From NCBI GenBank assembly GCA_026710055.1, contig JAPORV010000408.1, positions 1-37,238 on the forward strand: a stretch of 37,238 nt of DNA, read 5' to 3'. The position numbers and the translations under genes were made by a program. The DNA is from Aestuariivita sp. Its GTDB lineage: Bacteria; Pseudomonadota; Alphaproteobacteria; Rhodobacterales; Rhodobacteraceae. This document shows, piece after piece, positions 159 through 1,530 of the stretch (position 1 is the stretch's first letter; every line of letters begins with the position of its first letter). The notes under the pieces were generated by a model. That model had not been told where the DNA came from, did not search any database, and worked only from the letters and a program-made list of their open reading frames with translations.

Positions 159-456
159 TGTGCGTACGCGTCATGCACATTTTTGACTATTGAATAATTG
201 GCTAATTGCATTACGAACGCTAACACCCGAACATGTCGACCGTTCGCACCCGAACCTTAAAAATAGTTGCCATTATACCGTTGAACGGTTTTGCAAAATG
301 TGAAATGACGCACGACATAGTCACCGAACACTTTTGCAAGGGCGACTTGCAAACGCATTGCCGGTCTGTCCTGCCATAGAATTGAGGTTGCTTCGAAAAG
401 CGAAATCCACTGGAAAGGTCTGGATGCACGCAGCATCCCAAACGCTGATTGCTTGA

Positions 457-674
457 GGGTGTGGTTCTCATATGGTGTGGGGCAAATTTTGTAAACCATT
501 GATATGACACGATAATTATTTGTCAAATTTCGCTCATCACGCAAGATTCACCTGATTTTGCGAAACATCGTCCGATCGATCTACATTTTTCCCTATCTGA
601 CCTGTTTCGCCGCTGCTATTTGCTTTTGTTGGGAATGTGGTAGAGTGCTCCCACACCATATGAGAACCACACCC
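457..674. mobile_element. 218-bp MITE-like non-autonomous element
   Basis: Perfect 25-bp terminal inverted repeats GGGTGTGGTTCTCATATGGTGTGGG (457-481) and its reverse complement (650-674), flanked by an 8-bp direct repeat TTGCTTGA (449-456 and 675-682) as a target-site duplication. Confidence 0.8.
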
Positions 675-1530
675 TTGCTTGATATTACACTGGATGTCCA
701 AAACATCCATTTGAGAGGCTTGTACGGCGCGTTGTAAGCGCGGCGGACGGCTGATTTTTGAGCATTCGTCCGTACCCGCATTCGTGTGTCCAGAATGCTG
801 CTTGTAACACCGTAAGCCAAGGTCTTCGGGCCAATCTCGTTTGTTTCCGCCAACCGGCGTATTCGAAGTGCGTTGAAGGTTTCTTGGTGAAAGGTGCACT
901 GATGAGCGATGGTTGCCAATTTCTTCGTGCATTTCGCCCGTCGGAATGTGGCCCTTAGAGAACATCGCCGTCTTAAGGCCCTTGCTTGACGGTCGGCGGG
1001 TCATATTGACCCACCAAAACATCAATTCAAACAGCGCGCCCATGTTGAGCGGGTGAACGCAGCGTGAAAGGACAGCGATGGGGGCCGACCTCTCTGGGTT
1101 CCGGGTGCGGTGAACGTCGCGTGTGATTTGTTTTTCGGTATCTTCGCCTTGACTGTTGATCAGTGACGAAAACTATGCACCTAACAGCACCCTTCATTCT
1201 GTCTTTGACGTGGACGTGCAAGCCCACGGGCTTCGCTGGCGTGGATGTTCGCATGATGTCCGATATGATAATAATGTGAGCTGATTTTATCGAATAAATC
1301 AGCTTCTGAGGGCTTGCATCCATCGAGCGATTGCTGAAATTTTATCTTACCCTCTCTTCTGGTATCGCATCCAAAATTTCCGCCAACTTTTGCAAGTAGC
1401 TCCTCAGAGCCTCCTTTTTCAAAATTTTAGACTGATCTAATACCAAAAAAACCAGAATCATTCTGCATTCAGTCAACGAACGAGTAAAGCAACACAGTTA
1501 ATGCCACAAAACTCTAATCATTTCCCTTTG

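Follow-up and report, generated by a model that had tools for sequence, protein, structure and literature searches.

Close to one end of the window (the whole 37,238-nucleotide stretch analysed, which is contig C182 of host genome G000, a marine alphaproteobacterium), a short non-coding unit lies between inverted repeats, and the question it raises is which transposase moved it and how it was formed. The initial annotation described a 218-bp MITE with 25-bp perfect terminal inverted repeats (TIRs) and an 8-bp target duplication, and at 449-682 the sequence reads exactly as described: the element occupies 457-674 (218 bp) and is flanked by the 8-bp duplication TTGCTTGA. The 25-bp end matches the window exactly twice, once per strand and with 0 mismatches each time, and 0 matches are expected in a shuffled window (100 shuffles, up to 3 mismatches allowed). 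The features are as follows.

449..456, no strand: left copy of the target-site duplication, 8 bp, TTGCTTGA (direct read).
457..481, plus strand: left terminal inverted repeat, 25 bp, GGGTGTGGTTCTCATATGGTGTGGG, of the left (L) type of the parent insertion sequence (IS) (direct read and pattern match).
457..652, plus strand: homology to the IS left end with its untranslated leader, IS bases 1 to about 196 (sequence matches).
489..516, plus strand: promoter-like TTGTAA-16-GATAAT, a weak candidate for the promoter of the parent's transposase.
650..656, no strand: junction CCCACAC, common to the IS leader and the inverted left TIR (sequence comparison).
650..674, minus strand: right terminal inverted repeat, 25 bp, which repeats the parent's left end, and not its right end, in inverted orientation (diagnostic positions).
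675..682, no strand: right copy of the target-site duplication, TTGCTTGA (direct read).

The interior of the MITE consists only of IS leader, without the transposase gene. Its single promoter-like site compares with 0.8 expected by chance, and long reading frames enter the element on the minus strand only, the longest of which (537-1043) had no match in NCBIfam. The element is inserted at the end of the contig, in non-coding DNA rich in repeats, approximately 0.85 kb past the 3' end of a minus-strand run of chromosomal genes (peptidoglycan-binding protein, prephenate dehydrogenase and hisC). Comparison of the window flanks with the parent IS revealed no IS body beside the MITE. The element had been called non-autonomous, with no partner transposase in the window; the parts examined agree, and the parent is located elsewhere in G000. 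Two other repeats were observed in this region. The first bases of the contig (window 1-151) belong to the end of a different high-copy repeat that appears to be an IS; among 195 first-look candidates about 40 were scored as copies (90-100% identical), and many lie at contig ends. In other copies a minus-strand frame, MRTSFAIQPLLGNTATRQLTF..., starts just past it. Window 1062-1431 is a further dispersed repeat whose relatives on C75, C42 and C47 are 68-81% identical to it, the one on C47 (L114) adjoining an IS right end.

The genome-wide TIR search proposed in the initial annotation was carried out on G000 (3.84 Mb in 508 contigs). It gave 67 TIR-like ends (31 forward, 36 reverse; up to 3 mismatches), and a reversed control pattern gave 0 matches. 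Using the 218-bp element as query, two kinds of match were obtained: complete units, and matches to bases 1 to about 196-200 only, which are mostly at contig ends and diverge beyond that point. Instead of a fixed element with no other copies, 14 complete MITEs of 217-218 bp, 89-100% identical, were found, and target duplications at differing sites flank 13 of them. Eight of these duplications are exact 8-bp repeats (TTGCTTGA and, beside it, GTTTGGAA, GATCTTAC, TTTTCGAC, CATCTCGC, GCGTTGTG, TGACCCAA and ATTGGCTC), three are 8-bp repeats with one mismatch, and two are exact 9-bp repeats (TTGTAAAAG and TTTCTAATC). The lone MITE without a duplication, on C240 (L032), abuts a left-end IS fragment, an arrangement suggesting that one insertion nested in another and that the site was later rearranged. 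The element is therefore a real multi-copy MITE, with 14 complete copies of which 13 carry duplications. A plasmid collection searched with the MITE as DNA query gave chance-level short matches only, and a 24-base end query found none in viral contigs. All matches to the MITE in genomes G001 and G002 are IS-type left ends, with no MITE junction among them.

The partial matches identify the parent. Bases 1 to about 196 of the MITE are the left end of an IS together with its untranslated leader. This IS is present in G000 as dozens of broken-up copies, with 88-95% identity to MITE bases 1-196/200; in G001 and G002 the IS copies show 66-79% identity to bases 1-195. The left TIR at 457..481 matches IS left ends in G000 and has 2-4 mismatches against those in G001. 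Past the shared part the IS continues with a leader of about 50 bp and then a frame beginning MTIMPHETDLCK..., and the longest G000 piece yields 124 further residues, for which Pfam and NCBIfam gave no match. The left part of the MITE also matches twelve places in G001, which is of the same genus, and a search of genome contigs with the partial transposase gave one relative, JAPORY010000026.1 (Aestuariivita sp. isolate CAR2_bin_10). In G001 (taken as Aestuariivita sp. CAR2_bin_10), contig C112 carries a complete IS of 1,739 bp (locus L103) with TAAGATCA on both sides as an 8-bp duplication, a 22-bp imperfect terminal repeat and an intact transposase frame of 506 codons. At many contig ends in G000, a transposase C-terminus homologous to that of L103 (62-79% identical in the main set) is followed by a right-type terminal repeat, and the L103 IS and the G000 right end share about 76% identity. 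Among 298 genomes sampled from the host's family, six had a match to the IS transposase at E <= 1e-20, one of them from another genus with 62% identity.

No complete IS is present in the G000 assembly, where left and right ends are found on separate contigs. Left-end contig C284 and right-end contig C155 have the exact octamer TTACCCAA in common at the edges of the IS, which is what the left and right flanks of a single insertion should show; by our own estimate, about 0.012 such exact matches are expected by chance among 800 contig pairs. That so many contigs end in the parent IS helps explain the fragmented assembly. All three G000 IS copies that reach codon 31 (L052, L051 and L053, on C19, C42 and C360) have an in-frame TGA there, in the context LAAL*QK and near the start of annotated ISKra4 relatives. 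The TGA could represent decay, a later start or read-through, and because it is found in all three copies, an active transposase source within G000 is only putative. Other IS remains were also observed. C75 (L078) and C265 (L087) carry older, decayed relatives with stops (protein 41-46% identical), the one on C75 retaining a left end. On C209, L071 (1-5514) contains a decayed copy of the G001-type IS with a leader that is 75% identical, and a different ISKra4/ISH6-like transposase fragment downstream of it. At L123 on C67 two IS right ends lie almost back to back, with the end of one IS copy beside the C-terminal region of another.

The L103 protein matched positions 4-420 of the 422-position NCBIfam ISKra4 profile at E=1.2e-34; its score of 120.2 bits is below the NF033572 cutoff of 205 bits. 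The only other NCBIfam model matched at E <= 0.01 was ISLre2, weakly (3.1e-07); IS256, IS1595 and IS66 gave no match at this threshold. Two annotated ISKra4 transposases, plasmid-encoded in Candidatus Thiodictyon syntrophicum and in Pseudanabaena galeata, served as references for an alignment in which L103 shows 27-28% identity to each, and its D241, D320 and E433 align with D, D and E of both references, so placed that they would be the catalytic residues. ISKra4 is the nearest named family but the score is below the NCBIfam cutoff, and the transposase is therefore called ISKra4-like, a label based on the NCBIfam profile and the two aligned members. In the initial annotation the families IS1595, IS66 and IS256 had been named as compatible with the duplication, and all three do make 8-bp (or 8-9-bp) duplications. 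Movement of the MITE by a transposase of one of these families is nevertheless very improbable, since the IS whose left 196 bp it shares encodes a transposase matching ISKra4 and ISLre2 only (E <= 0.01). IS256 (p-MULT 1) belongs to the same Mutator-like superfamily as ISKra4 and shares 8-9-bp duplications with the parent IS (PMC3942029).

Elements of the Mutator-like superfamily have repeats of 18-39 bp and duplications of 8 or 9 bp (Guerillot et al. 2014, PMC3942029), and L103, with the TAAGATCA duplication and its 22-bp imperfect inverted repeat, fits both ranges. Like the ISKra4 group (p-MULT 4, PMC3942029), the parent has a transposase whose homology extends along almost the entire ISKra4 model, with the DDE residues aligned, 8-9-bp duplications and terminal repeats of about 22-25 bp that start with GGG. 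Unlike that group, its transposase scores 120 against a cutoff of 205 with the low identity given above and carries about 45-55 additional residues at its N-terminus, and the IS is without clear promoter targeting (11 found against 6.6 expected in 82 flanks, P=0.06, not significant, using a crude consensus), insertion beside sigma-A promoters being a trait of several ISKra4 members. Judged from sequence, the parent of the MITE is a divergent ISKra4-like insertion sequence. No paper on a published ISKra4-derived MITE was found in the literature searched.

The two ends of the parent IS are unequal, the left being GGGTGTGGTTCTCATATGGTGT and the right GGGTGCGATTCTTGTATGGTGT. In G001 they read GGGAGTGGTTCCCATATGGTGTGGG and GGGTGCGAATCTTGTATGGTGT; in G000 the left end is GGGTGTGGTTCTCATATGGTGTGGG and the right-end consensus GGGTGCGATTCTTGTATGGTGTGCTAAC, which differ at 4 of 22 positions (6, 8, 13 and 14). 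At these four positions the right ends of all 14 MITEs carry T, G, C and A, whereas 15 of 15 IS right ends have A, T and G at positions 8, 13 and 14, and 12 of the 15 have C at position 6. A search allowing up to 3 mismatches found no MITE interior joined to a right-type end, only left-type copies. By these diagnostic positions, both ends of the MITE are copies of the parent's left end, and with the left type at both ends in 14 of 14 copies, a plain internal deletion does not account for the MITE. It resembles other bacterial MITEs (reviewed in PMC10969869) in being short and non-coding, with inverted ends, a target duplication, many copies and a related full-length IS, and differs from them in that its ends are perfect and both of left type while those of the parent differ at 4 of 22 positions.

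The sequences at the junction indicate how the founder could have formed. Most copies of the IS have ...GAGTGCTCCCATAC... in the leader, and two have ...GAGTGCTCCCACAC...; the left end, when inverted, is ...CCCACACCATATGAGAACCACACCC, and the MITE has ...GAGTGCTCCCACACCATATGAG...; at the junction itself the leader has CCCACAC in two IS copies and CCCA in most others. The founder would have arisen once from the left ~196 bp of the parent, when the leader became joined, at the short CCCACAC match, to an inverted copy of the left terminal repeat; deprived of the right end and of the entire transposase gene, it would then have spread. A single joining at CCCACAC would be the simplest history. That every copy has the same junction speaks for a single origin, which we infer for the whole family; in a tree of left ends the MITEs do not fall in one clean clade, there being too little signal to show one origin. 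A different history, to which we give about one chance in four, is a plain internal deletion running from CACAC in the leader to the CACAC of the right end, with the right TIR later converted to the left type. CACAC indeed occurs in the leaders of two IS copies (CTCCCACAC) as well as in the right end of the IS (GCACACC), and four later changes would suffice, but the left type is found at fixed diagnostic positions in all 14 MITEs, no right-type intermediate was found with up to 3 mismatches, and two steps are invoked where one is enough. Deletion and conversion would keep the same parent and the same mobilisation, differing solely in how the founder formed.

Very probably, the MITE family was moved in trans by the transposase of this divergent ISKra4-like (Mutator-superfamily DDE) IS, from a founder made of the left end at CCCACAC. 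The parent's transposase would bind the terminal repeats at both ends and cut out or copy the 218-bp unit, which would insert at a staggered cut whose filling leaves the 8-bp (sometimes 9-bp) duplication. The mechanism may be cut-and-paste or by way of a circle; homology with the Mutator-like superfamily (PMC3942029) suggests that transposition probably proceeds via a circular intermediate.

The window copy differs from the consensus of the 14 copies at 7 of 218 sites, none within the ends, and the other complete MITEs differ at 6-19 sites; this is no burst of identical copies. The transposition had been described as recent, a description that these differences, together with a best other copy that is 95% identical, leave weakly supported. 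No empty site (expected to read ...AACGCTGATTGCTTGATATTACACTGG...) was found in relatives; in G001 and G002, both of the same genus, the left flank (window 185-371) had no counterpart. It is possible, with a probability that we put at around one in five, that the family is a dead, fixed repeat or one kept for a host role as an RNA hairpin, promoter or terminator. The 89-95% identity of the other complete copies to the window copy and the stop codon common to three IS copies fit a dead family; perfect duplications at scattered sites, however, are the mark of transposition, and death of the family would address its present state only and leave its origin unexplained. As for a host role, the paired ends of the element fold strongly, but they do so because they are inverted repeats, which alone account for the fold, and no known RNA family (Rfam) was found in the element region at E <= 1.

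A previously unassigned MITE is thus given its parent, and a divergent ISKra4-like element is added. The MITE is genuine and ordinary in kind; its left/left architecture is instructive. In the Mutator-like superfamily, the orientation in which an element inserts is believed to depend on its ends being unequal (PMC3942029), and for this reason duplication of a single end of an asymmetric IS in inverted orientation, for instance by template switching at CCCACAC, may have created a left/left substrate that is better or free of orientation. We regard this proposal as tentative, somewhat less likely to be right than wrong; if true, it would explain why the symmetric form spread over a plain deletion. 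The asymmetric parent and its symmetric left/left derivative are a natural pair for studying end recognition by Mutator-like bacterial transposons, and the same pair bears on how MITEs are born.
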